From DATKZS01 sp035527835 [NCBI: bacterium] (GTDB lineage: Bacteria; RBG-13-61-14), in NCBI GenBank assembly GCA_035527835.1, contig DATKZS010000089.1:1-13472 (forward strand): 13,472 nucleotides of DNA, given 5' to 3'. The first letter of the stretch is position 1, and every line of letters begins with the position of its first letter. The notes beneath the pieces were generated by a model, which had not been told where the DNA came from, made no database searches, and saw only the letters and a program-made list of their open reading frames with translations. The position numbers and the translations under genes are program-made. This document shows, in pieces, positions 1 through 12,943 of this stretch.

Positions 1-3000
1 ATTATCAAGCGCGATCAGCGACGTGGTGTCAGTGGCGATAACCGGCCTCATCCCGAACTCCGTCTTCATCCTTGATAATACCACAGCTTCCATCCTCGAA
101 GCCATGCGCTTCCAGACGACACGGTATTTAGCAAATGTGTAATCGCTTATATTATACATGCTCCAATACGGCGCGAAAGGCACTTTTTGAGATGCGCCGC
201 CTTTCTTCTTTATTTCCTTATGAAAATATTTCTTATATGCCGCGCGACCCGATAACTCCTTTTTAAATTGCACCAGATAACCAAGCGTGAGCGCAAGATT
301 GTTTTGAATGAAATATTCTTCAGAATATCCAGCTCTTGATTTCGGGTCTTGAGCAATGAGCAAATAAAAGTGTTTGTTCATGCCGAACCGCTTGATATCT
401 CCACCGCTAACCGCTGGATAAACCAAGTCCGGCTCAATGGCCTGGGTGGTCTTTCTGATGGTCATCTTTCCGCGATCATTCCAATTTTCCACCACCAACT
501 TGCCGTCCGGCCTGACCTCCTTGAGCTTGAGCCAAAAAACACCATAGGGCTCTACCCTTGCCCCGAGACGCGCGACATAAATATTTTTCCCCTTTAATGA
601 GCCCAATCTTTTCAAAGCTTTTTTCGTTGCCGTCTGCCATGAAGAGGCCGGTTTTTTCGGATCAATCGGCCATCCTTCCAACTCCTGGACCTCGCATTTC
701 TCCAGGACTTGTTTGAGGCTCAAAGTGGGCTTGATCTTGCCGGCGCGGGGTTTTTTCCGCCATGACTTCACCGCTACCGGATAACGGGTCGGCTTGCCCT
801 TTTCCAGGACGAATAGCGAGGTCTTATTGGCGGCATGGAAGGGTTGGAGATGGACCATGTCATACATGCCCAGCACGGAGAGAGGGATTTCATTGCCCTT
901 GTCCGCGGGAATGATGAAGCGGCGGAAGCCCTCGCCGGCCCCCTTGGCCTTGAATGCTTCAATAGTGATCAAAAAGCCGAGCCGCCCTCCCTCTTCGAGG
1001 TAGTTATCAGCGCAGGCATAGGTAAAGAGCATGGAGAAGTCCTTTTCGCCCCCGCCGAGTCTGGTTTCATGCCCTTTGAGCGAAAATAATCCATAACGAT
1101 GCCAGAGAGGCAAGGTCCTCTCCCGGTATTCGTCCGAGAGCAGCCCCCAGCGGATCCAGGGCGGGTTTCCGATCACAAAGTCAAATTTTCCGAGATAGGC
1201 GGGGGCAAAGGCATTCTTGATGTAACGCGCCCAGATTCCGTTCTCTCCCCTTTTTTCCATGTCCCTGATTTGTCCATAGGTCTCTTTTATCAGGTCCTCA
1301 TCCAGCGGCTCCAGGTCGCTGTCTTGAAAATAGCTCTTGAGAAACACTTCGGGCGTCATCATGCTTTTGAGCGCCTGCTCCACGGCTTCGGTGAAACGAT
1401 CTATCCATTTTTTTTCCAGCATAAAATGCGGGAATTTAAAATCCACCTTGGAAGTTGGGAAGACAACGGGATTATTATCAAAAGCAAACTCTCCATTCTT
1501 GCGTGATTCCGAAGGAGTTACTATGGAGTCACAGAGATAAACCGGTATGGTAACTGGTCGGACATGGGGTAAAAATTTAGCAAAGGATATTAGGTAATTA
1601 GTCCGGGCGGCCAAAACGGCCAGGGGATTTATATCAAATCCAACAATATTATTGAGCATCTTCGCCGCCGTCTCGGCGGGATTTTCGTTGAGCTCCTTCA
1701 GATGGTTCTGTACCACCAGGTTAATGGCCTTGATGAGAAACGTCCCGGAGCCGCAGGCCGGATCGAGGAAGCGCTGGTCAGGGTCTCCGTCATAACCGGT
1801 CTCGGCAACCAGGTATTCGGCCAGCCAGTCCGGGGTATAATATTCTCCGAGGGCCCTTCTCAAATCTATCGGAACGATCAATTCATAGAGGTTCTGGAGG
1901 AGGTCTCGGGTCCATTCCGGCTCAAGCACTGGCGTTGCAGGCTCAAATTTAGCCAGTTCCCGAACCATGCCTCTTATCGCGCCTGCCAATTTGGGCCCCC
2001 ATTCGTCCAGATACCAATAGAAGAAATCGGCCTCGAGAAAGTTGGTAATGCCGCGTTCACTGAATTCTTGGCCGTTTTCCATGTCAATCAGACGAAGCCG
2101 AAGGGCCTCGTCATCCAGACCAGAAAAATCCTGCACCAGGGAAACCATCCTGCTTTCATGTTGGAGCGCGACAAGCTCAAGCGCCATTAGTTTCATCAGG
2201 AGCGCGTAATAGGTATGAATGGCGAAAAGAAAGTTTTTCAACCGTATGCCTTGAGGCATTCCATAGAGCATAGCCACTTTGTCGGCGACGTTTTCGGCTT
2301 TTTCCAGTTCCTGTCCATAAACCACGCCGAAGATGCGGTCCCATTCATTGAAAAAGGTCCTGGTGCGAAGGTCGCCGCTCTTTCGCTGCGTGCCCCGGGA
2401 GACCGCCGAATAAAGCTCGGAGACAAGCTGATGTGCGGTTGGAGATTCCGGACGGAAAGAATCAGCCAGATCCGTAGCGGTTAAGCGCTTGCGGTCAGAA
2501 GCACGGATGAAGATCAAGAGATTCGTGAGACTGGCCGAATTAACGGGAAAGGGTCCTTGAACCTGAAAGCCTTGGCTGGGCCTTTCCAGCGGGAACAGAG
2601 ATAACTGCGGCAAAGGGATCTGAACCGGTAGCGTTATTAATCGTGCGGTCTTGGTGTAGCGGATGAAAATAATTTCTTGACCATCTAATGCCACACCCAC
2701 CGCTTGTTCCAAGTAGTCCTCTCGATGAGGAGTGCCTTGTGATTCACCTTCTAAATATTTAATTACTTGGGCCGATGTTTCCTCTTGTCCTTTCTTCGTG
2801 GACAGCTTACCCGGCGATTTGTATTCAATGACCAGAAAGCCATAGACGGCGTCAGGCTTGCCATGCAGCGAGATGTGTTTCTCGTACCGGACCTTGTCAA
2901 CGCCCACCCCGATGCGGTTGAACTCTCTTTTCAGGAGGGGTTCAACTTTCATCTTCAGGTCTTCCTCGGTGCGCGCCTCCCGCGATGCATGTAATATTTC

Positions 3001-3065: not shown

Positions 3066-4196
3066 TTAAATTGCGGTCTCGTAAATGCGGTAGGTCTTGT
3101 ACACTACCCCGCCCATGTGCCGGATGGCGCGGTTCATGGCGTCGTTGGATTCGAGGATCCAGGACATCTCGCCCCACTGGTAGCCCAGGCGCTTGGCGGC
3201 CATCAGGGTGTCGTAGTAGAAGACCGCGCCGACGCCGGAGCGGCGGTGCTCGGCCTTGACGCCGAGCGCGAACACGCGGCAGGAGGTGTACTTCTTTTTG
3301 ACGACCATGGGGTACCACATGGTGGGGAGCAGGTTATAGAGGTGTCCGTTGAGCTGAGTGATGTACTCGTTCAAGTTGGGCAGGGTCAGCGACACTCCCA
3401 TGACCTCGCCGTTCTTGGTCTCGGCGAAGAAGGCGAGTCTGGGGTCGAGGAGGTATCTGAGCTCCATGCTGTGGGCCATGAGCTCGCGCTCGGTGAGCAT
3501 GACCGAGCCCCAGTTCTTCTCCCACGCCGAGTTGTAGACCTCGATGAACCTGGCCATCTCGTTCTTGAAGTCTTTGAGGTTCCACTCGCGGATGAGCACG
3601 CCCTCCTTCTTGCGGATCATCTCGGCGTAGTTCTTGACGTCCTCCGGCGCGTCGGCCACGGCGTCCATTCTGTAGGCCAGCAGGTCCTGGACCTTCTTCA
3701 GGCCGAACTCGTCGAACATGCGGGGGTAGTAGCGCGGGTTATGGGTCATGAGGATCATGGGCGGCGTGTCGAATCCGTCCACCAAGAGCCCGCACTCGTC
3801 GTTGATGTTGAAGTTGTACGGCCCCTGCATGCGCTCGATGCCCTTGTTCTTGAGCCAGTCGCGGGCGGTCCCGAACAGGGCCCGGGCCACGGCGGGGTCG
3901 TCAACGCTCTCGAAGAAGCCGAACTGGCCGGTGCCCGGTCCCCAGTGCTTGGCGTAGTGGTCGTCAATCTGGGCGGTGATGCGGCCGACCGGCTCGGCGC
4001 CGCGCCAGGCGATGAAGTACTCGGCCTGCGCGTGGTCAAAGATCGGGTTGTGCTTTTTGTTGAGCTTGTTATTGACGTCGAAGAACAGCGGCGGGACCCA
4101 GTTGGGGTCGCCGACGTAGAGCTTCCACGGCAGCTTCATGAAGGTCGTGAGCTCCGAGCCCGAGCTTGCCGGTTTGACCGAGATGTCGAGGGCCAT
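3066..4196 (-). CDS. GNAT-fold N-acetyltransferase-like protein, two-lobed, 376 aa
   Basis: The ATG at 4196 has an ideal AGGAGG (complement of 4205-4210) 8 nt upstream. The C-terminal lobe (about 200-376) carries a GNAT acetyl-CoA pyrophosphate-binding signature: a beta strand, then R318-R319-S-G-V-G-A324 and a helix. A terminal segment with SWILESNDAMN and a closing YKTYRIYE resembles the end of GNAT proteins. The N-terminal lobe (about 10-175, including YFIAWRGAEPVGRI) looks like a degenerate second GNAT fold. Proteins of this type are usually annotated only as hypothetical or GNAT, and sometimes wrongly as dATP pyrophosphohydrolase; the substrate is unknown. It follows the acetyl-CoA hydrolase-GNAT gene across a 135-bp gap that contains an inverted repeat. 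It ends 14 bp before the restriction-modification gene and could be co-transcribed with either. No signal peptide or membrane segment is visible. The family call is good; the function is unresolved. Confidence 0.85.
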   Translation of the reverse strand: MALDISVKPASSGSELTTFMKLPWKLYVGDPNWVPPLFFDVNNKLNKKHNPIFDHAQAEYFIAWRGAEPVGRITAQIDDHYAKHWGPGTGQFGFFESVDDPAVARALFGTARDWLKNKGIERMQGPYNFNINDECGLLVDGFDTPPMILMTHNPRYYPRMFDEFGLKKVQDLLAYRMDAVADAPEDVKNYAEMIRKKEGVLIREWNLKDFKNEMARFIEVYNSAWEKNWGSVMLTERELMAHSMELRYLLDPRLAFFAETKNGEVMGVSLTLPNLNEYITQLNGHLYNLLPTMWYPMVVKKKYTSCRVFALGVKAEHRRSGVGAVFYYDTLMAAKRLGYQWGEMSWILESNDAMNRAIRHMGGVVYKTYRIYETAI

Positions 4197-4238
4197 GATC
4201 TCTTCCTCCTTTTAAGTGTCCTGGCTATTATAGGCTTA

Positions 4239-4320
4239 TTATCTCACACAGAGGCACAGAGTCCACAGAGAAAATTTACCTTCAATAAATCTCCGTGAAC
4301 TCTGTGCCTCTGTGCGATAA
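4239..4320. repeat. Intergenic inverted repeat, arms 4239-4270 and 4291-4320
   Basis: The left arm contains cacagaggcacagag and the right arm its complement ctctgtgcctctgtg. The match extends outward to ttatc/gataa and inward through about nine further bases with two mismatches, leaving a 20-base AT-rich loop. Both arms are built from the same short word in direct and inverted copies. The element lies between two minus-strand genes. It could fold into a long hairpin in the transcript, but no T-tract follows on the minus strand, so it is not a classic intrinsic terminator. Similar cacagaggcacagag palindromes are familiar as scattered intergenic repeats in many bacterial genomes. Confidence 0.85.
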
Positions 4321-4331
4321 AAAATCTTCCT

Positions 4332-6260
4332 TCACCCCGTCTCGTCACGGGCCTGGGTCTTGGCCTCCACGGGCTGATCAAAGCGCATCTCGAAGATGTA
4401 GACCCCGTCCTCGTACTTGGAGCTCTGCTTGTAGCCGGCGTTCTGCATGATGTGGATCATGGGCCGGTTCTCGGACAGGACCTCCGCGGTGAAGCCTTCG
4501 ACTCCGCGCTGCTTGGCCACGCGCACCAGGTAATTGAACAGGAACTCGCCCAGGCCCTGGCCCTGCCAGGCATCCAGCACCATGACCGCGGCCTCCGCCA
4601 TGTTGCGCTTGCGGTCCATCATATACTGGCCCAGCCCGGCCATCTTCCAATCCGGGTCCTCCCCGGTAAACGCCCCGATCGCCATCTGGTCCTGGTAGTC
4701 CAGGTTCACCATGTACTGCGCCTTCTCGTGCGGCAGCGCCTTCATCGGCGTGAAGAACCTGAGGTACACGCTCTTTTCGGAGAGGTCATAGAACATGTCG
4801 CGGAGCCAGGCCTCGTCGGTGATCTTGATAGGCCGGATGAAGAACTCGGCGCCCTTCTTGCCGGTGAAGTGTTTTTCCAGATTCTCCGGATAGACCACGC
4901 CGCTGGCGGGCGGCGGGAGCTGGTCCGCGTACACGTATTTCTTGTCCTTGGCAAAGGCGAGCAGCTCGGCGCGGACGTCGGGGTGCGCGATGCTGATCAG
5001 CGCCATGGCGCGCTCGCGGATGTTCTTGCCGTGCAGGTAGGCGATTCCGTACTCGGTGACCACGTAGTGGACGTCGCCCCTGGTGGTGACCACGCCGGCG
5101 CCGTCGGCGAGCTTGGCCACGATGCGGCTCACCTTGCCGTCCTTGGCGGTGGAGGGCAGGCAGATGATGGGCTTGCCGCGCCGGGCCATGGCGGCGCCGC
5201 GCATGAAGTCGGCCTGGCCGCCGATGCCGGAGTAGAAGTGGTAGCCGATGGAGTCGGCGTTGACCTGTCCGGTGAGGTCCACTTCGAGCGCCACGTTGAT
5301 GGCGGCCAGCCGGTCGTTCTTCGCGATGTTCATGGGGCTGTTGCAGTACTCGACCGGGTGGAACTCGAAGAACGGGTTATTGTGGACGAAGTCGTAGAGC
5401 CTCCGCGAGCCCATGCAGAAGGACGCGATGATCTTGCCGGGGTGGAAGGTCTTTTGGGCGCAGGTCACGGCGCCGGCGGTGATCAGGTCGAGCATGCCGT
5501 CGGAGAAGACCTCGGTGTGGATGCCCAGGTCCGACCGGTCCTGAAGATGATAGAGCACGGCGTTGGGCATGGACCCGATTCCCATCTCCAGGGTGTCGCC
5601 ATCCTGGACGAGCTTGGCCACGTTGGCCGCAACTTTTTCATGGACCTCGGTCGCCTCCGGGTACGACCACTCCAGCACCTCTTCTTCATGCTCCACGATC
5701 ACGTCAATGTCCACCGCGTGGATGAAGGAGTCGCCGAGCGTGCGCGGCATTTTGGGGTTCACCTGCGCGATCACCAGGCCCGCGGACTCCGCCGCCGCCT
5801 TCACGATGTCCACCGACACCCCGAAGGTGCAGAAGCCGTGCTCGTCCGGCGGCGACACCTGGATCAGCGCCACGTCAATGGGGAGCCGCCCGTCCCGGAT
5901 CAGGTGCGGGATCTCGGACATCATGATCGGGATGTAATCAGCCCGCCCTTCCCACACCGCCTTCCGGGCGTTGGGCCCGATGAAAAAGGAGTTGTGGCGG
6001 AACACGTCGCCGAACCGGGGCTCGTCATAAACGTCCACCCCCATGGAGAGCAGGTTGAAAATCTCCGCGTCCTCGATCCCGGACTGGCTCTCGATCAGCG
6101 CCCGCACCAGGGCCTGCGGCTCGCCGCAGGCCGTGCCGATGAAGATGCGGTCCCCGCGCCGGACCTTCTTGACCGCCTCCTCCGCCGTGGTCCGCGCCTG
6201 GTCATAATACTTGCGCCAATCCGCGGCCGGCCGTTTTCCTTTTGCCCGCAGCCCAGGCAT
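4332..6260 (-). CDS. Bifunctional acetyl-CoA hydrolase/CoA-transferase with C-terminal GNAT acetyltransferase, 642 aa
   Basis: I place the start at the ATG at 6260 because a strong GGAGG lies 5 nt upstream. The open frame continues upstream to 6359, but only through a heptamer repeat. Residues 1-440 match the acetyl-CoA hydrolase/transferase family: GIGSMPNAV (228-236), then GIHTEVFSDG (246-255) holding the probable catalytic glutamate E250, and a conserved GIGGQADFMRGA (345-356). Family members hydrolyse acetyl-CoA or move CoA between acetate and other acyl groups. Residues about 474-628 form a GNAT domain with the acetyl-CoA-binding signature W-Q-G-Q-G-L-G (565-571) after the strand AAVMVLD. 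The two-domain architecture is known as a recurrent fusion. Its place immediately after an AcuC-like deacetylase and an acyl-CoA synthetase suggests that the GNAT part acetylates a metabolic enzyme using the local acetyl-CoA pool. That role is inference. No signal peptide is seen, so it is probably cytoplasmic. Confidence 0.93.
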   Translation of the reverse strand: MPGLRAKGKRPAADWRKYYDQARTTAEEAVKKVRRGDRIFIGTACGEPQALVRALIESQSGIEDAEIFNLLSMGVDVYDEPRFGDVFRHNSFFIGPNARKAVWEGRADYIPIMMSEIPHLIRDGRLPIDVALIQVSPPDEHGFCTFGVSVDIVKAAAESAGLVIAQVNPKMPRTLGDSFIHAVDIDVIVEHEEEVLEWSYPEATEVHEKVAANVAKLVQDGDTLEMGIGSMPNAVLYHLQDRSDLGIHTEVFSDGMLDLITAGAVTCAQKTFHPGKIIASFCMGSRRLYDFVHNNPFFEFHPVEYCNSPMNIAKNDRLAAINVALEVDLTGQVNADSIGYHFYSGIGGQADFMRGAAMARRGKPIICLPSTAKDGKVSRIVAKLADGAGVVTTRGDVHYVVTEYGIAYLHGKNIRERAMALISIAHPDVRAELLAFAKDKKYVYADQLPPPASGVVYPENLEKHFTGKKGAEFFIRPIKITDEAWLRDMFYDLSEKSVYLRFFTPMKALPHEKAQYMVNLDYQDQMAIGAFTGEDPDWKMAGLGQYMMDRKRNMAEAAVMVLDAWQGQGLGEFLFNYLVRVAKQRGVEGFTAEVLSENRPMIHIMQNAGYKQSSKYEDGVYIFEMRFDQPVEAKTQARDETG

Positions 6261-6265
6261 TTTAA

Positions 6266-6270
6266 CCTCC
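6266..6270 (-). promoter_or_regulatory. Shine-Dalgarno GGAGG deciding the start at 6260
   Basis: The complement reads GGAGG followed by ttaaa and the ATG at 6260. The only upstream alternative, the ATG at 6359, lies inside the repeat arm and would encode 33 residues of repeat-derived sequence, so this site decides the start. Confidence 0.85.
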
Positions 6271-6285
6271 AAGTTTGCGGTTTGG

Positions 6286-6357
6286 GGTTTGTAGTTTGTG
6301 GTTTGTGGTTTAAGAATTCGCGGCTTTGTCTTAACCACAAACCACAAACCACAAACC
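6286..6357. repeat. Heptamer-based inverted repeat, arms 6286-6315 and 6329-6357
   Basis: The left arm is made of tandem ggtttgt-type heptamers ending in taaga. The right arm begins tctta and continues with the complementary acaaacc heptamers. The arms match over about 29 bases with one mismatch and one extra T, enclosing a 13-base loop that contains an EcoRI-like gaattc at its edge. It fills most of the 98-bp gap between the deacetylase stop and the true start of the hydrolase-GNAT gene. In RNA it would form a long hairpin roughly 25 bases upstream of the hydrolase start codon, so it could influence processing or translation of the downstream gene. Confidence 0.88.
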
Positions 6358-6358
6358 A

Positions 6359-7492
6359 TTATTTCGCCCCGATAATCGGAAACACGTTCTCCTTGATATA
6401 GTCAATGGCCGCCTCCGCCGCTTCCAGGACCTTGAGCTTTTCGGGCCCGGAGGTGCGGACGCTCATGTCGCGGAGGCTGGCGATACCGAGGTCGGTCTCG
6501 CCGATGAAGACGCCGCCGAGCGTCGCGGTCATATCGTCCTGCCGGTCCAGGTCGTGCGCGGCGGCCCAGAGCAGGCACCAGCCGCGGGCCACGTTGTCGA
6601 GGTTATAGCCGCCGGCGCCGAGCGCCACCCAGCGCGGCGCGAGCTTATGGATGACGCGCACGGCCTGGACATAGGAGTTGTTGGTGAGCTTGAGGTGGGT
6701 GAGCGGGTCGGTGGAAAAGGTGTCCACCCCCATGACCCCGATCACCAGGTCGGGCGCGAAGGCCTTGACGAGCGGCGGGAAAATCTCGGTGAAGGCGAAC
6801 GTGAAGATCTCGTCGTCGCTGTTCAAGGCCAGCGGCACGTTCACGTTAAAGCCGCGGCCCGGCCCCTCTCCGATCTCGTCATAATTCCCGCCCCACGGGT
6901 AAAGCGTCTCGCCGGACTCGTGAAGGCTCACGGTCAGCACCCGCGGATCATCGTAAAAAAAGTCCTGGGTCCCGTTGCCGTGGTGCGCGTCAATGTCTAT
7001 CACCATGACCTTCTTTCCCTGGTCGGCGGCCTTCCGGGCGATGATGCAGACGTCGTTCACGTAGCAGAAGCCCTCGGCCATGGACCGGCCCGCGTGGTGG
7101 AAGCCGCCGAGCGGATTGAACGCGAAGCCGTAATCCTTTTCCATGACCAGCTCCGCGGCCTTGATGGTGGCCCCGGCCGAGATGCTGAGGAATTCCCACA
7201 GGCCGGGGAACACGGGGCAGTCTTCGGTGCCGATGCCGTACTCGAGCATGGTGAGAATGAACTCGCCCCCGCTCGCGCGCTTCAGGAGCTCCAGATAGGG
7301 CGCGGAGTGGACGAGGGCGAAATCCTCCAGGGACGCCGGCTCGGGCGTCACCACCTCCATGCCGGGATGGGCCAGCAGGCCGTAGCGGTTGCACAACTCG
7401 TAGGCCCTCCTTCCGCGCACCGGGTCGTAAGGATGGTTCTCCGAGAGCTTGTACTCCGCGAACTGAGCGCTATAGATAAAAGCCGATTGCAC
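6359..7492 (-). CDS. acuC: AcuC-like class I histone-deacetylase-family protein, 377 aa
   Basis: The family folds as an arginase-like Zn-dependent deacetylase that removes acetyl groups from lysine or similar amines. All key residues are visible: the His dyad H132-H133 (GGFHHAGR), zinc ligands D168 and H170 (DIDAHHGNGTQ) and D257 (GVMGVDTFSTDPLTH), and the transition-state tyrosine Y296 (GAGGYNLDN). Length is normal for AcuC (about 370-390). The start is a GTG at 7492 with AAAGG about 8 nt upstream; no better start is visible. In Bacillus, AcuC deacetylates acetyl-CoA synthetase and reverses the action of the AcuA acetyltransferase. Here the neighbours are an NDP-forming acyl-CoA synthetase upstream and a hydrolase carrying a GNAT domain downstream, which fits the same type of control. 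A polyamine or acetoin-related deacetylase is an alternative reading. The gene symbol is by similarity only. Confidence 0.92.
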   Translation of the reverse strand: MQSAFIYSAQFAEYKLSENHPYDPVRGRRAYELCNRYGLLAHPGMEVVTPEPASLEDFALVHSAPYLELLKRASGGEFILTMLEYGIGTEDCPVFPGLWEFLSISAGATIKAAELVMEKDYGFAFNPLGGFHHAGRSMAEGFCYVNDVCIIARKAADQGKKVMVIDIDAHHGNGTQDFFYDDPRVLTVSLHESGETLYPWGGNYDEIGEGPGRGFNVNVPLALNSDDEIFTFAFTEIFPPLVKAFAPDLVIGVMGVDTFSTDPLTHLKLTNNSYVQAVRVIHKLAPRWVALGAGGYNLDNVARGWCLLWAAAHDLDRQDDMTATLGGVFIGETDLGIASLRDMSVRTSGPEKLKVLEAAEAAIDYIKENVFPIIGAK

Positions 7493-7532
7493 TGCCTTGA
7501 CCTTTACTACAAGTGGAAACGCCGATTAATAA

Positions 7533-7647
7533 ACCACGGAGGAACACGGATTGAAATAGTAGTTAGTAGCAAGTAGCCCGTAGCCAGGGTCCGGATCTGA
7601 ACCCTGGCTGCTGGCTACTGATCCCTGGCTACTCTTTAATCCGTGGT
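7533..7647. repeat. Composite intergenic inverted repeat between acyl-CoA synthetase and deacetylase genes
   Basis: The outer arms are accacgga...acacggatt (7533-7552) and aatccgtggt (7638-7647). Between them is a second set: gtagccagggt (7580-7590), its inverse accctggct (7601-7609) and another inverse ccctggctac (7623-7632), with several gtag/agtag words on the left. The right end overlaps the last codons and stop of the synthetase gene, so the encoded TTD C-terminus is repeat-derived. It could form alternative hairpins after the synthetase stop on the minus strand, but no T-run makes it a clear terminator. Confidence 0.75.
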
Positions 7648-9795
7648 CCCCATCTCTCCCGGCCTCTCCTTCATTTCCTCGGGCCTGAAGAAGCGCATCA
7701 TCCCGTCCACGGCCCAGAGGTCCTTCATGCGGGGCAGGACGATCAAGGGGTTGATCTCGAACTCCCTGATCTCCTCGAATTGCTCGATCAACTGGCTGGC
7801 GCGGCAGAGCAGGTCCACCAGCGAGGGCACGTGCACCGGGTTCCTTCCCCGCAAGCCCTCCAGCAGCGGGTAGATCTTGAGGGAGCGGACCATCTCCAGG
7901 GCCTCCTGGGTGGTGATGGGCACGATGCGGAACTGGAAGTCCTGGATGATGTCGGCGTAAATGCCGCCGGCGCCTAGCTTGAGCACGGGCCCGAAGATGG
8001 GGTCGTAATGCGCTCCGACGATCAGCTCCTGTCCGCCCCGTACCATCTGCTGCACCAGCACGCCCTCGACCTGGGCCGAGGCGTAGCGGGCGCGGACGTT
8101 TTCCATCACCGCATGAAACGCGCGCTTGACCTCGGCCTCGGTGCGCAGGTCGAGCATGACCCCGCCCACCTCCGACTTCTTCTTCAGCCGCTCCGACACG
8201 GCCTTGACCACCACCGGGAAGCCGATGCGCTGGGCCACGCTTACGGCCTCCTGGTCGGTCCGGGCCATGCCGTTCCTGGGCACCTTGACCCCATAGGCCA
8301 GGGCCACCTCCCGGACCTCGTCCAGCCGGAGCTCCGTCCGGCCCTCCTTCTCCGCCCTCTTAATCAGCCGGGCCACCGTGTCGCGGTCAACGTTTCTGTA
8401 TCTCTTCACCTTGCCCTGCGGCCGCTCGCGGAAGAGCTGATACGCGCGCAGGTGCGCGATGACCCGGCAGGCCGACTCGGGGAAGGAATAGACCGGAATG
8501 CTCTGCTCCTGCAGCGTCCGGATCCCGGGGTCCCCGCTCCTTCCTCCCATCAGGCAGACCAGGACCGGCTTCTCGATGTTCCCGGTCTGCTCGATGATGA
8601 TCCGGGCCACCTTGCCGTATTCCAGGCCCACGTAGATGATGAGGAGCACGTCGAGGTTGGGGTCCCCCAGCATGGCGGGAATGGCCTGGCGATATAGATC
8701 AATGTCGGCGTCGGCGCGCATGTCGAGGGGATTGCGCACGGAGTCGAGATAGGGCAGCTCGGCCCGGAGCCGGTCCACGGTGCGGGGGTCGAGCGGCGGC
8801 ACTTCGAGCTCGAGGCCTTCCAGGGCGTCGGCCGCCATGATGCCGGGCCCGCCGCCGTTGGTGAGCACGCCGACGGCGGCGCCCCGAGGCAGCGGCTGGC
8901 TGATCACGGCCTTGGCCAGGTCAAAGAGCTCCTCCAAAGTCTGGACCCGGAGCACGCCGCACTGCGCGAACAGCGCGTCCACCGCGAGGTCCGAGGCCTT
9001 TTCCGTGGTGGCCGCGGGAGCGTCGCCCGTGTGCCGGTCGGCGGCCAGGGCGCCGGAGACGGTGCGGCCGGCCTTGACCGCGATGATGGGCTTTTGCGCG
9101 GTGATGGTGCGGGCGATCGAGGTGAAGCGGCGGGGGTTGCCGAAGCTCTCCATGTAAAGCAGGATGGCGCGGGTGTCCGGGTCGTCGCGCCAGAATTCCA
9201 AGAGGTCATTGGCCGAGACGTCGGCGCGGTTGCCCACGCTGGCGTACATGGAAAAGCCCAGGCACAGCTCGCGGGCGTAGTTGAGGATGGCCATGCCCAT
9301 GGCCCCGCTCTGGCTCATGAAGGCGATGTGGCCGGGCGTCATCGAAGCGGGCGCGAAGGTGGCGTTCAACCGGTGGCGCGGGTCGGTGTTGATGACGCCC
9401 ATGCAGTTGGGCCCGATCATGCGCATGCCGTGGCCGCGCACGATCTTGGCCAGCCGTCTTTCCAGGGCCTCGCCCGGGGGACCCGTCTCCTTGAACCCGG
9501 CCGTGATCACCACCACGCCCTGGACGCCCTTCCGGGCGCAGTCCTCCACCGCCTTGATCACGTCCCGGGCCGGCACCACGATCACCGCCAGGTCAATCGG
9601 GTCCGGCACCGACTGCGCCGAGGGATAGCAGGGGAACGAATGAATCACCTTGGCCTTGGGGTTCACCGGGTACAGCGGACCCTGAAAACCGCTCTCCACC
9701 AGGCAGCGCAGCACCCGGTGCCCGAACGCTCCCGGGTCCCGGCTCGCCCCCACCACCGCCACCGCGCGCGGCTTGAATATGTGCGAAAGGCCCAT
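7636..9795 (-). CDS. NDP-forming acyl/acetyl-CoA synthetase (ADP-forming acetate-CoA ligase family), 719 aa
   Basis: The enzyme interconverts acyl-CoA plus ADP and phosphate with free acid, CoA and ATP. Domain order is that of fused alpha-beta ACD proteins: a CoA-binding Rossmann domain (about 1-130, starting IFKPRAVAVVGASRDPG), succinyl-CoA-ligase-like domains (about 140-450, with FMSQSGAMG and TNGGGPGIMAADALE), then an ATP-grasp domain (about 480-700, with GFPVVVKAVS, GGVMLDLRTEAEV and FEINPLIVLP). The phosphohistidine is H255 in DRHTGD. The open frame reaches back to 9999, but the first residues are encoded by an intergenic inverted repeat, so I use the ATG at 9795. Family homology starts there, and a GGAAGGA-like site lies upstream at a somewhat long spacing. 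The next ATG upstream (9837) has no SD. Some relatives carry a fused GNAT domain and act as protein acetyltransferases (Pat); this one does not. It is probably the first gene of the metabolic string. The acyl substrate (acetate, propionate or other) cannot be told from sequence alone. Confidence 0.92.
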   Translation of the reverse strand: MGLSHIFKPRAVAVVGASRDPGAFGHRVLRCLVESGFQGPLYPVNPKAKVIHSFPCYPSAQSVPDPIDLAVIVVPARDVIKAVEDCARKGVQGVVVITAGFKETGPPGEALERRLAKIVRGHGMRMIGPNCMGVINTDPRHRLNATFAPASMTPGHIAFMSQSGAMGMAILNYARELCLGFSMYASVGNRADVSANDLLEFWRDDPDTRAILLYMESFGNPRRFTSIARTITAQKPIIAVKAGRTVSGALAADRHTGDAPAATTEKASDLAVDALFAQCGVLRVQTLEELFDLAKAVISQPLPRGAAVGVLTNGGGPGIMAADALEGLELEVPPLDPRTVDRLRAELPYLDSVRNPLDMRADADIDLYRQAIPAMLGDPNLDVLLIIYVGLEYGKVARIIIEQTGNIEKPVLVCLMGGRSGDPGIRTLQEQSIPVYSFPESACRVIAHLRAYQLFRERPQGKVKRYRNVDRDTVARLIKRAEKEGRTELRLDEVREVALAYGVKVPRNGMARTDQEAVSVAQRIGFPVVVKAVSERLKKKSEVGGVMLDLRTEAEVKRAFHAVMENVRARYASAQVEGVLVQQMVRGGQELIVGAHYDPIFGPVLKLGAGGIYADIIQDFQFRIVPITTQEALEMVRSLKIYPLLEGLRGRNPVHVPSLVDLLCRASQLIEQFEEIREFEINPLIVLPRMKDLWAVDGMMRFFRPEEMKERPGEMGTTD

Positions 9796-10369: not shown

Positions 10370-10405
10370 TAAAGGAAAGAAACGTGCCGTTTTTAACCCG
10401 TGAAA

Positions 10406-10411
10406 AGGAGG
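10406..10411 (+). promoter_or_regulatory. Shine-Dalgarno AGGAGG deciding the start at 10418
   Basis: AGGAGG lies 6 nt before the ATG at 10418. The longer frame would begin at a GTG (10400), but that codon overlaps this ribosome binding site, so the ATG is preferred. Confidence 0.88.
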
Positions 10412-10417
10412 CCTGAA

Positions 10418-12943
10418 ATGAGTCTCAAGGGAAGAGTGCCGGTATTTGTTCTGTCCTGCCTGCTTGCATCTTTGGTGCTTCTCATCATGCCCATGACATT
10501 ACGCGCGGCCTGCGGAGTGCCGGTCTGCGGCAACGGGATCCTCGATCCGGGCGAGCAGTGCGACGACGGAAATTTGCTCGATGGCGACGGCTGCGCCGCC
10601 GACTGCACCGAGAGCTTCGACCTGGTGGAAATGCCGACGCTGTTCGCCTACTCCGGCGAATCTCCCCGCGACATGGAGGCCGCCGACCTCAATAACGACG
10701 GGCTCCAGGACCTGCTGGTCAGCACCTATCGCAGCGCCTACCTCTACGTTTACCTGATGACGCCGGGCGGCGTCCTGGTCCAGGCCCAGAAGTATCCGCT
10801 GGGCAGCAACACCATCATGATTGACACCGGCAACCTCAACGGCGACCGCAACGTGGACGTGGTGGCGGCGGACTGTGACACTGACCAGCTCTTCATCTTC
10901 ATGGGCAACGGCGACGGCTCGCTGACGCTCGCCAACATCTTTGATCCCGGCGACCGTCCGCGCTCGGTGCGGATCAAGGACATCAACACGGACGGTTATG
11001 CCGACATGATCATGGGCCTGCATTGGGGCAGGGGCTTCCGCGTCTATTACGGCGACGGCCAGGGCGGGTTCCCCACCAATACCTTTATCGGGACCAGCGC
11101 CGGCGCCATCGCCTCGGAGACGTTTGACGTCAACGGCGACGGCTACAACGATCTCGGGCTGTGCACCTGCGGCGAGGGAGCGGGCGGAGTGCCCTCGTTC
11201 CAGGTCTACCTCGGCGGGCCCGGCGGCCTGACCCTCAGCCAATCCTTCCCCTTCGACGCCAACGATGCCAACGCCATTGACCTCAACGGCGATGGCTACT
11301 ACGACTTCCTGGTCACCGCGTCTTCCTCCTTCATATCGTATATCAACCAGGGTGACGGCACGTTTATCAAGGGTTTTGAGCTGGCACCCGGAAAGACCGG
11401 ATTTATGAGGCACACGGGAAACCTCAATAACGACGGGCTCGAGGACGTGGCCATCGCCACCGGGTCGGCCTCCCGGCCCGATCTCAAGGAAGTGCGCGTC
11501 TATCTCGGCGACGGACAGGGCTCGGTCCATGACGAGCGGTCATTCCCCACCCCCGCCAACTCCTCGGAAGCTATCATCTACGACGTGAACCTTGACGGCG
11601 TACCCGACGCCCTCACCTCATCCGGCAATCAGGTGATCCCCGTCATCAACCACAGTTATTACCAGTTCCCGGCCTGCGGCGACTCCCGCATCGGCCGGGG
11701 CGAGAGCTGCGATGACGGCAACCGCGCCGACGGCGACGGCTGTTCATCCACCTGCCGGCTCGAGGCCACCGGCGACACCGACCATGACGGCATGAGCGAC
11801 GCCGAGGAGTCGGTGATTCTGGGCACCGATCCGCTCAATCCCGACACTGACGGCGACTGCGTGATGGACGGAGAGGAATACTGCTCGGGCGCCGATCCCT
11901 TGAACCCTCTGGACCAGCCCGGCTGCCAGGGCATCGTCACTCCGGAGGGGTCATGGCGCATCCAGGTGACCCTGCTCGAGGCCTCGGCAGGACTCTCCAG
12001 CGACATCTACCTGGCCCAGCCCGACGAGCAGCTGCTCATCAAGAAGAGCCTCAAGCACGTGGGCAAGGTCGCCACCACCAGAGTCTATTCCGGCGATACC
12101 GTCTCCTTCTTCATCCGGGTCGATGGTCAGAGCATGGGCTTGGGGACCTACGATCATTATTCCGATTCCATCTTTTCGCGAGTCACTCGCGTGGATGCCT
12201 ATAACTACACCGTGGGCTTCGAGGACCTGCCTGTAGAACAGGCGGATTGGGACTTCAACGACGTGGTGCTGGCGGTCAAGTTCATTCCGGAAAGCGTGGC
12301 CCAAGGCGTCAGCGTCAACAACCTGGACGAGTTCGAGGCCGCCAAGAGCGTTTCCACCTCTTCGCCAACCACGGTTGAGCTCGCCTTCGACGGATACTCT
12401 TCCCTGACCCTGCCCGCCGGCGCCGTGAGCTCCGACGCCGGAGTGGTGCTGACCGCGGGACTGGCCGAGCTATATGCCGACATCAGCCCGCCGGACATGC
12501 AGGTGGTGGGAGAATATTACAAGGCCACCCTGACCAACGGACAGGCCGCCCTCGACGGCGAGCCCGCGTCCATCGTGATCGCTTATGCAGACGACGATGC
12601 CGACGGAGTGGTGGACGGGACCGACATCTCCGAAAACAAGCTCAGGATCACCCGCTATAACGAGGACACGCAAAAGTGGGAGAACCTTGCCTCCACGGTT
12701 GACCCGGAAAACAACACCGTCACCGCCTCCTCCGACCAGATGTCCCTCTTTGCCCTGGTCCCGGAGCATTCCGTCTCCTCCGACCAGATGTCACCCTCTG
12801 CCCAGGTCCCGGATAATTCCCATAGCAGCTCGCTTAGCTGCGGCGTGAACGAGGCCGCCCAATCCATGCCGCTGTTCCAGGGACTGTTGTCACTCATTCC
12901 CGCATTGGCCCTGAGGTTCTGGATCAAGAGAAAAAATCGCTGA
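10418..12943 (+). CDS. Secreted FG-GAP/VCBS propeller protein with DUF4215, TSP3-like and DUF4114-like domains, 841 aa
   Basis: Residues 1-30 form a signal peptide: a short basic start, a hydrophobic core (about 8-26) and a probable cleavage near LRA-A. A Cys-rich DUF4215 repeat follows (about 32-63, GEQCDDGNLLDGDGC). Seven Ca-binding DxNxDGxxD motifs begin at about residues 90, 139, 188, 237, 288, 335 and 389, a period near 49, as expected for a seven-bladed integrin-alpha-like propeller. A second DUF4215 repeat (420-447) leads into thrombospondin-3-like calcium loops (453-503, DTDHDGMSDAEE and DTDGDCVMDGEE). Then comes a DUF4114-like module (about 511-624, with GFEDL and DWDFNDVV) and a beta-rich domain (about 640-782). 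The tail has S-C808-G-V, a hydrophobic segment (about 819-835) and KRKNR, resembling a C-terminal surface-sorting signal. It is probably a calcium-dependent cell-surface or adhesion protein. Exact function is unknown. It appears monocistronic with its own promoter. Confidence 0.92.
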   Translation: MSLKGRVPVFVLSCLLASLVLLIMPMTLRAACGVPVCGNGILDPGEQCDDGNLLDGDGCAADCTESFDLVEMPTLFAYSGESPRDMEAADLNNDGLQDLLVSTYRSAYLYVYLMTPGGVLVQAQKYPLGSNTIMIDTGNLNGDRNVDVVAADCDTDQLFIFMGNGDGSLTLANIFDPGDRPRSVRIKDINTDGYADMIMGLHWGRGFRVYYGDGQGGFPTNTFIGTSAGAIASETFDVNGDGYNDLGLCTCGEGAGGVPSFQVYLGGPGGLTLSQSFPFDANDANAIDLNGDGYYDFLVTASSSFISYINQGDGTFIKGFELAPGKTGFMRHTGNLNNDGLEDVAIATGSASRPDLKEVRVYLGDGQGSVHDERSFPTPANSSEAIIYDVNLDGVPDALTSSGNQVIPVINHSYYQFPACGDSRIGRGESCDDGNRADGDGCSSTCRLEATGDTDHDGMSDAEESVILGTDPLNPDTDGDCVMDGEEYCSGADPLNPLDQPGCQGIVTPEGSWRIQVTLLEASAGLSSDIYLAQPDEQLLIKKSLKHVGKVATTRVYSGDTVSFFIRVDGQSMGLGTYDHYSDSIFSRVTRVDAYNYTVGFEDLPVEQADWDFNDVVLAVKFIPESVAQGVSVNNLDEFEAAKSVSTSSPTTVELAFDGYSSLTLPAGAVSSDAGVVLTAGLAELYADISPPDMQVVGEYYKATLTNGQAALDGEPASIVIAYADDDADGVVDGTDISENKLRITRYNEDTQKWENLASTVDPENNTVTASSDQMSLFALVPEHSVSSDQMSPSAQVPDNSHSSSLSCGVNEAAQSMPLFQGLLSLIPALALRFWIKRKNR
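12728..12823 (+). repeat. 48-bp in-frame tandem duplication in the C-terminal linker
   Basis: Units 12728-12775 and 12776-12823 match at about 39 of 48 bases. They encode the 16-residue repeats SSDQMSLFALVPEHSV and SSDQMSPSAQVPDNSH. The first copy completes the beta-rich domain; the second copy is Ser/Pro-rich and lengthens the linker before the C-terminal anchor. Confidence 0.85.

Follow-up and report, generated by a model that had tools for sequence, protein, structure and literature searches.

Described acetylation systems and the layout of the locus

The closest described system is acuABC/AcsA of Bacillus subtilis, as presented in the parts of PMC13121692 and PMC8556138 drawn on here. It has in common with the locus analysed in this work an acyl-CoA-forming step at which the genes for a GNAT writer and an AcuC-type Zn-dependent deacetylase lie side by side, but in the locus the writer is a Pat-like GNAT domain carried by a CoA-transferase, and the nearby synthetase belongs to the NDP-forming family. 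The Pat/PatA enzymes of types I and II combine a synthetase and a GNAT domain in one protein. The locus likewise encodes a Pat-like GNAT domain, with its acetyl-CoA motif and Glu, and a synthetase of the same family close by, whereas its GNAT domain sits on a CoA-transferase and its synthetase is a separate gene. According to the sections of PMC8556138 used here, Pat has an inactive synthetase domain that binds acetyl-CoA. More generally, the bacterial lysine-acetyltransferase classes set out in the cited portions of PMC8556138, PMC11254643 and PMC6456759 comprise GNAT domains with inactive synthetase domains, with small effector domains, or alone or in tandem, and none of them has a CoA-transferase partner.

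Two families of metabolic enzymes are also relevant. ADP-forming acyl-CoA synthetases, such as Nmar_0206 and ACD1, share their full domain set and the swinging-loop His with the synthetase of the locus, which differs from them by a Lys at the position of the ATP-grasp relay His and by a six-residue swinging-loop insertion. The 4-hydroxybutyrate CoA-transferase/acetyl-CoA hydrolase family, which provides the best solved match (9vag), shares the HTE Glu and the GGQ motif with the CoA-transferase; unlike that family, the latter bears a C-terminal GNAT domain, and its scores do not reach the NCBIfam cut-off of any named enzyme.

The window, that is, the whole stretch of DNA analysed (13,472 nucleotides), contains six ORFs that were scanned with Pfam and NCBIfam. 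The minus strand encodes, in transcription order, the synthetase (9795-7636), AcuC (7492-6359), the CoA-transferase-GNAT protein (6260-4332), a second GNAT gene (4196-3066) and an Eco57I-like methylase; the first three are consecutive on one strand, as the initial annotation had stated. Among the six ORFs, no AcuB (CBS or ACT Pfam match) and no AMP-forming AcsA (AMP-binding Pfam match) was found. Identity to any relative found was at most about 56% and mostly below 50%, so that orthology of the whole set is at most putative. The best values were 54% for the whole CoA-transferase-GNAT protein (in a Chloroflexi MAG) and 56% over 373 of its residues (in L307), with 49% over AcuC and 47% over the synthetase.

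Each gap among the four co-directional genes preceding the methylase holds one strong inverted repeat (hairpin), and the three repeats are all different. They lie at 7554-7637 between the synthetase and AcuC (RNA fold of 7546-7640, z = -5.0), at 6286-6357 between AcuC and the CoA-transferase-GNAT gene (fold of 6264-6362, z = -6.5), and at 4239-4322 ahead of the second GNAT gene (z = -10.7 for the fold of 4232-4331). The 12-mers of the three gaps are found at no other place in the window, and short sequences that match the repeat cores exactly are present in 0 to 2 of 306 loci. These hairpins may serve transcript ending or processing and, as all three gaps hold one, the genes may not be co-transcribed. 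No tRNA was found in the window, and Rfam gave zero matches at gathering scores.

The deacetylase, the CoA-transferase-GNAT protein and the synthetase

AcuC (6359-7492, minus strand, GTG start, 377 aa) belongs to the histone-deacetylase/AcuC family (Hist_deacetyl, PF00850, E = 7e-83). The HDAC-type residues H132, H133, D168, H170, D257 and Y296 are all present, in agreement with the initial annotation, and an alignment of the window protein with 106 relatives shows the six to be conserved in all 107 rows. Both the family match and the Zn and catalytic residues are, thus, those of a classical Zn-dependent deacetylase.

For the CoA-transferase-GNAT gene (4332-6260, minus strand, 642 aa), ATG 6260 was chosen as the start because GGAGG precedes it by 5 nt; a longer ORF, from 6359, starts within the hairpin repeat. 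Its fusion of an acetyl-CoA hydrolase/CoA-transferase to a GNAT domain had been noticed initially, and the domains are confirmed by Pfam (PF02550, PF13336, PF00583). The CoA-transferase domain (4944-6206, minus strand) is like 4-hydroxybutyrate CoA-transferase (9vag, E = 3e-139) and keeps both the HTE Glu, which we take to be the catalytic residue of CoA-transferases, and GGQ. This Glu and the Gln of GGQ are invariant in all 81 stand-alone rows (80 loci and the window). The domain scores under the NCBIfam cut-off of every named enzyme (the best being TIGR03948, 324 bits versus 675) and, as the synthetase does likewise, ‘acetyl-CoA’ stands here for a family label and assigns no substrate.

The GNAT domain (4389-4895, minus strand) contains a QGQGLG acetyl-CoA motif and a Glu, at the position of which the same 81 rows have E (69), D (11) or Q (1). 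It is Pat-like in its solved matches (4nxy, E = 7e-21; 4u5y, 9it0 and 4ava), the best of which are named Pat, protein acetyltransferase or, for 4nxy and 4u5y, acyl-CoA synthetase; we take these last two to be the GNAT domain of PatA. Pat/PatA chains were matched, and no chain named AcuA was among the 29 GNAT-domain structure matches at E ≤ 0.001. As judged by titles and abstracts, no description of a CoA-transferase/acetyl-CoA hydrolase-GNAT fusion, or of a GNAT-deacetylase fusion, was found in the literature.

Relatives of the CoA-transferase-GNAT protein are widespread, being encoded by 356 of 364 pattern matches. The best 80 loci, from bacteria and archaea, were kept, each match extending across the GNAT domain, to at least query residue 626 of 643. 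A synthetase of the same family starts on the same strand within 500 bp downstream in 24 of these 80 loci (within 45 bp in 22 of the 24), further off in 8 and was not found in 48, with 1.5 kb of downstream sequence available in 67 of the 80. In three further loci (L259-L261), the synthetase lies just upstream, which is also its place in the window. None of the 80 loci was found to have AcuC nearby; 36 of them have at least 5 kb on both sides.

The synthetase (7636-9795, minus strand, 719 aa from ATG 9795) shows the domain set of ADP-forming acyl-CoA synthetases in Pfam (CoA_binding_2, Succ_CoA_lig and ATP-grasp_5), without a GNAT match. Its best solved match is 8wzu, and it scores under the NCBIfam cut-offs (NF045493, 565 versus 1300; TIGR02717, 494 versus 567). 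It keeps one of the two relay histidines expected of such an enzyme. H255, the swinging-loop His (9031-9033, minus strand), is retained, as it is in every relative of two alignments (30 of 30 and 40 of 40); the six-residue insertion that follows it and alters the SLAG loop occurs in the window only, among the aligned relatives. At the position of the ATP-grasp relay His, placed by alignment to 8wzu (H535 of Nmar_0206), K539 is found (8179-8181, minus strand), and the window alone has Lys there, His being present in all relatives of the same two alignments (30 of 30 and 40 of 40; together 70 of 70). The relatives were selected by score and do not form a random sample. The 30-relative alignment, restricted to synthetase matches of at least 350 bits, took in 22 of the 24 synthetases adjoining a CoA-transferase-GNAT gene, and all 22 keep both His.

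Succinyl-CoA synthetase is a superfamily member with a single phosphohistidine. DddX is another superfamily enzyme described with only one, in the part of PMC8163506 relied on here, and the loss of the relay His need not, therefore, abolish synthetase activity. H535 of Nmar_0206 is, in the corresponding part of PMC11494057, the first residue to accept phosphate from ATP. Judging from its residues, the window synthetase is atypical and may still be active; it could be a target, a sensor or a still-working enzyme. The initial annotation had proposed it as a possible partner in the module and part of the acetyl-donor supply. The partnership is supported by its pairing with the CoA-transferase-GNAT gene in 24 of 80 loci, but the donor role is weakened by the Lys, which means that this copy may not be a working supplier of the acetyl donor.

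Joinings of the putative writer and eraser in other genomes

The most direct link between the two activities comes from one phylum, in 4 of 235 genomes of which the CoA-transferase, GNAT and AcuC form one polypeptide of about 1,000 aa. These triple fusions (L116, from G017, the genome of L060 and titled Deltaproteobacteria, together with L253, L254 and L255) are each encoded by one open frame. The fusion was aligned along its length, Pfam domains were scanned in L116, L253 and L254, and the C-terminus of L255 is cut by the contig end. L253, L254 and L255 share 51-60% identity with L116. All four have another residue in place of the CoA-transferase Glu (D in L116, L255 and L253; M in L254) and all four lack the GGQ Gln, the GNAT Glu (4/4) and the AcuC residues being retained. 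The enzyme part, thus, seems to have decayed and the two predicted regulatory activities not, and the CoA-transferase part is probably a sensor pseudoenzyme. This resembles Pat, with its inactive, acetyl-CoA-binding synthetase domain. An AlphaFold model of L116 (pLDDT 84.9, pTM 0.60) has good domain folds and an uncertain relative arrangement; it matches 4-hydroxybutyrate CoA-transferases and HDACs, with no GNAT chain among the 50 matches listed. L116 adjoins genes resembling those of the CODH/ACS pathway (read from ORFs only), and the genomic contexts of the fusions are unlike one another, those of L253 and L254 also differing.

In a further phylum, L309 has all three window families in a row on one strand. 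Its synthetase keeps both His, its CoA-transferase-GNAT is 54% identical to the window protein over query residues 35-516, and its AcuC ORF overlaps the preceding stop by 4 bp. The CoA-transferase-GNAT of L309 (9098-10968) is read in three frames, the pieces of which were searched apart; this reflects assembly error or decay.

In a survey by phylum, AcuC was found in 72 of 297 genomes of G019's phylum (which we infer to be probably Desulfobacterota; E ≤ 1e-60) and in 54 of 198 from a sample around G006 that overlaps with these. The phylum of a Chloroflexi MAG (G001) yielded 32 of 151 and that of a Nitrospirae MAG (G021) 17 of 118 (both E ≤ 1e-55), followed by 6 of 222 for the phylum of G017 and 2 of 82 for that of a KSB1 MAG (G023; both E ≤ 1e-50). 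In total, 145 AcuC neighbourhoods, of up to about 8 kb per side and often less at contig ends, were scanned with the window proteins. Conservation of the gene order, for which the initial annotation had proposed such a check, did not hold up, as the exact order of the window occurs in 0 of the 145. Five of them have the CoA-transferase-GNAT fused to AcuC (the four triple fusions) or right next to it in the same orientation (L309, which also has the synthetase), in a set biased by the inclusion of L116, from genomes picked for CoA-transferase-GNAT, and of L253-L255, for which the fusion served as the query. If the four fusions are treated as a single event, the chance of two independent joinings among the 145 would be 0.003-0.01, a rough estimate that assumes 2-4 such genes per genome among 4,000. 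The reading that the order is simply unconserved, considered for the 80 CoA-transferase-GNAT loci and 80 AcuC regions, was dropped given the triple fusion and L309.

Several neighbourhoods were not counted as clusters: L115 and L174, where synthetase matches lie 6.6-7 kb off on the opposite strand; L171 (24%) and L302 (26%), with weak transferase matches lacking a GNAT match; and L180, where the CoA-transferase-GNAT is 5.3 kb off, with other genes intervening. The flanking ORFs of AcuC are mixed, with 3 GNAT-family and 3 AMP-forming acetyl-CoA synthetase matches among the 107 scanned. These come from 134 flanking ORFs (short or doubtful ones dropped) of 69 out of 80 loci, the 69 having an AcuC ORF called and 11 being left out.

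GNAT domains are joined to AcuC in other ways as well. Some Chloroflexota AcuC proteins have a GNAT domain at their C-terminus: the match passes the Pfam cut-off in L275, L276 and L292 and is marginal in L283 (20.0 versus 20.7 bits), and L277, seen as sequence only, is a near copy of the L276 fusion. Of 34 Chloroflexota regions, 9 have an AcuB-like gene immediately upstream of AcuC, and regions L328-L330, L332 and L333 are listed with AcuC-GNAT fusions and AcuB-like upstream genes. In L310 (7731-11912), a GNAT-synthetase (805 aa, without a Pfam ATP-grasp match, and outside the set of synthetases aligned above), an AcuB-like CBS-CBS-ACT protein and AcuC follow one another, and this looks like an acu-like cluster whose writer has the GNAT first, the order of Pat type II. 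This repeated joining of a GNAT writer to AcuC, in some cases on a synthetase or a CoA-transferase, supports a writer-eraser pair. The linkage proposed initially, therefore, gains from the four fusions, L309 and the Pat-like GNAT domain, but not from the 80 CoA-transferase-GNAT loci, none of which has AcuC near.

Proposed mechanism and alternative readings

It appears somewhat probable that the locus encodes a module for reversible lysine acetylation, a variant of those known, at the node between short-chain acyl-CoAs and their acids. The writer would be the Pat-like GNAT domain on the CoA-transferase, acetylating lysine at high acetyl-CoA, and the eraser would be AcuC; protein lysine as the substrate and the pairing of the two are what we infer. 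The CoA-transferase part would interconvert acyl-CoA and acid and allow the writer to be placed at the acyl-CoA pool or to sense it. The synthetase family would be a recurring metabolic companion of the CoA-transferase-GNAT, of which the window holds an altered copy, possibly regulatory or working with a single histidine, and the window would represent the unfused form of the writer-eraser set. As to the target, our guess is that one of the locus's own enzymes, the CoA-transferase or the synthetase, is acetylated, and not an AMP-forming synthetase encoded at another place in the genome.

A wider proposal is offered tentatively: CoA-transferase-GNAT proteins may constitute an undescribed class of lysine acetyltransferases, comparable to Pat, with the CoA-transferase as an acyl-CoA sensor (probably a working enzyme in most of them and a dead one in the triple fusions) and AcuC as a neighbour (L309 and the window) or fused in some lineages. 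A writer, an eraser and a decayed metabolic enzyme in one protein would show a route from metabolic enzyme to regulator, and would be a compact system in which to test how a polypeptide with two opposing activities avoids futile cycling. The window adds the natural case of a neighbouring synthetase with a lost relay residue. Together with the fusions in other bacteria, the locus hints at an undescribed control of metabolism by protein acetylation.

Plain acyl-CoA metabolism with chance neighbours is an unlikely alternative to this module. The CoA-transferase-GNAT and the synthetase would be a common fermentation or acid-activation pair, AcuC having arrived by rearrangement and acting elsewhere, on AMP-forming acetyl-CoA synthetase or other proteins. 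The 24 loci in which the pair adjoins, with no AcuC found, fit this explanation, as do the mixed flanking genes of AcuC and the hairpin repeats in every gap, which suggest a rearranged region. Nevertheless, chance fits poorly, on a rough estimate, with AcuC and CoA-transferase-GNAT being fused in four genomes and adjacent, together with the synthetase, in L309.

Less probable still is a Pat split over two genes, in which the window synthetase would be a degenerate acyl-CoA sensor acting in trans with the GNAT domain of the CoA-transferase, AcuC reversing the modification. The change of the relay His to Lys and the altered swinging loop, found in the window only among the 70 aligned relatives, point this way, as does the inactive, acetyl-CoA-binding synthetase domain that the cited sections of PMC8556138 ascribe to Pat. 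Some of the nearest relatives in G019's phylum (L233, L234 and L235) have open frames of 921-964 aa, a length suggesting an extra domain, and L310 has a GNAT fused to a synthetase without the Pfam ATP-grasp, beside AcuB-like and AcuC genes. On the other hand, the swinging-loop His is kept, the existence of single-phosphohistidine enzymes means that the synthetase may be active, and the case rests on one sequence.

The GNAT and HDAC-fold families, as is generally known, both contain small-molecule enzymes, and the GNAT domain could act on a small molecule, which counts against the module. That the GNAT and AcuC act on polyamines or amino acids, in a cluster with no part in protein regulation (polyamine acetylation is treated in the cited part of PMC11532494), is very improbable, however, as the GNAT domain best matches Pat protein acetyltransferases among solved structures and the window AcuC falls in the same (starred) 47-row tree group as the fused AcuC domains. 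Within this group, it is not specifically sister to the fused domains, and its candidacy as their nearest relative was rejected; the L309 AcuC (38% identity) is not among the rows of the tree.

The remaining genes of the window flank the proposed module. The second, stand-alone GNAT-family protein (3066-4196, minus strand, 376 aa; PF00583, E = 4e-5) has relatives in 38 of 95 genomes of G017's phylum, and was rejected as a module member because no relative adjoins the other module genes in the loci scanned. The Eco57I/N6_Mtase-type methylase, within 3318-1 on the minus strand, runs off the window end, and its stretch is lower in G+C (0.50-0.52 over 1-3000, versus 0.56-0.69 from 3001 on). On the plus strand, 10400-12943 encodes a protein with FG-GAP, DUF4215/myxo_disulf_rpt and TSP3 matches. 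Its C-terminal part comprises a hydrophobic stretch followed by a basic tail, and it looks like a surface-type protein.
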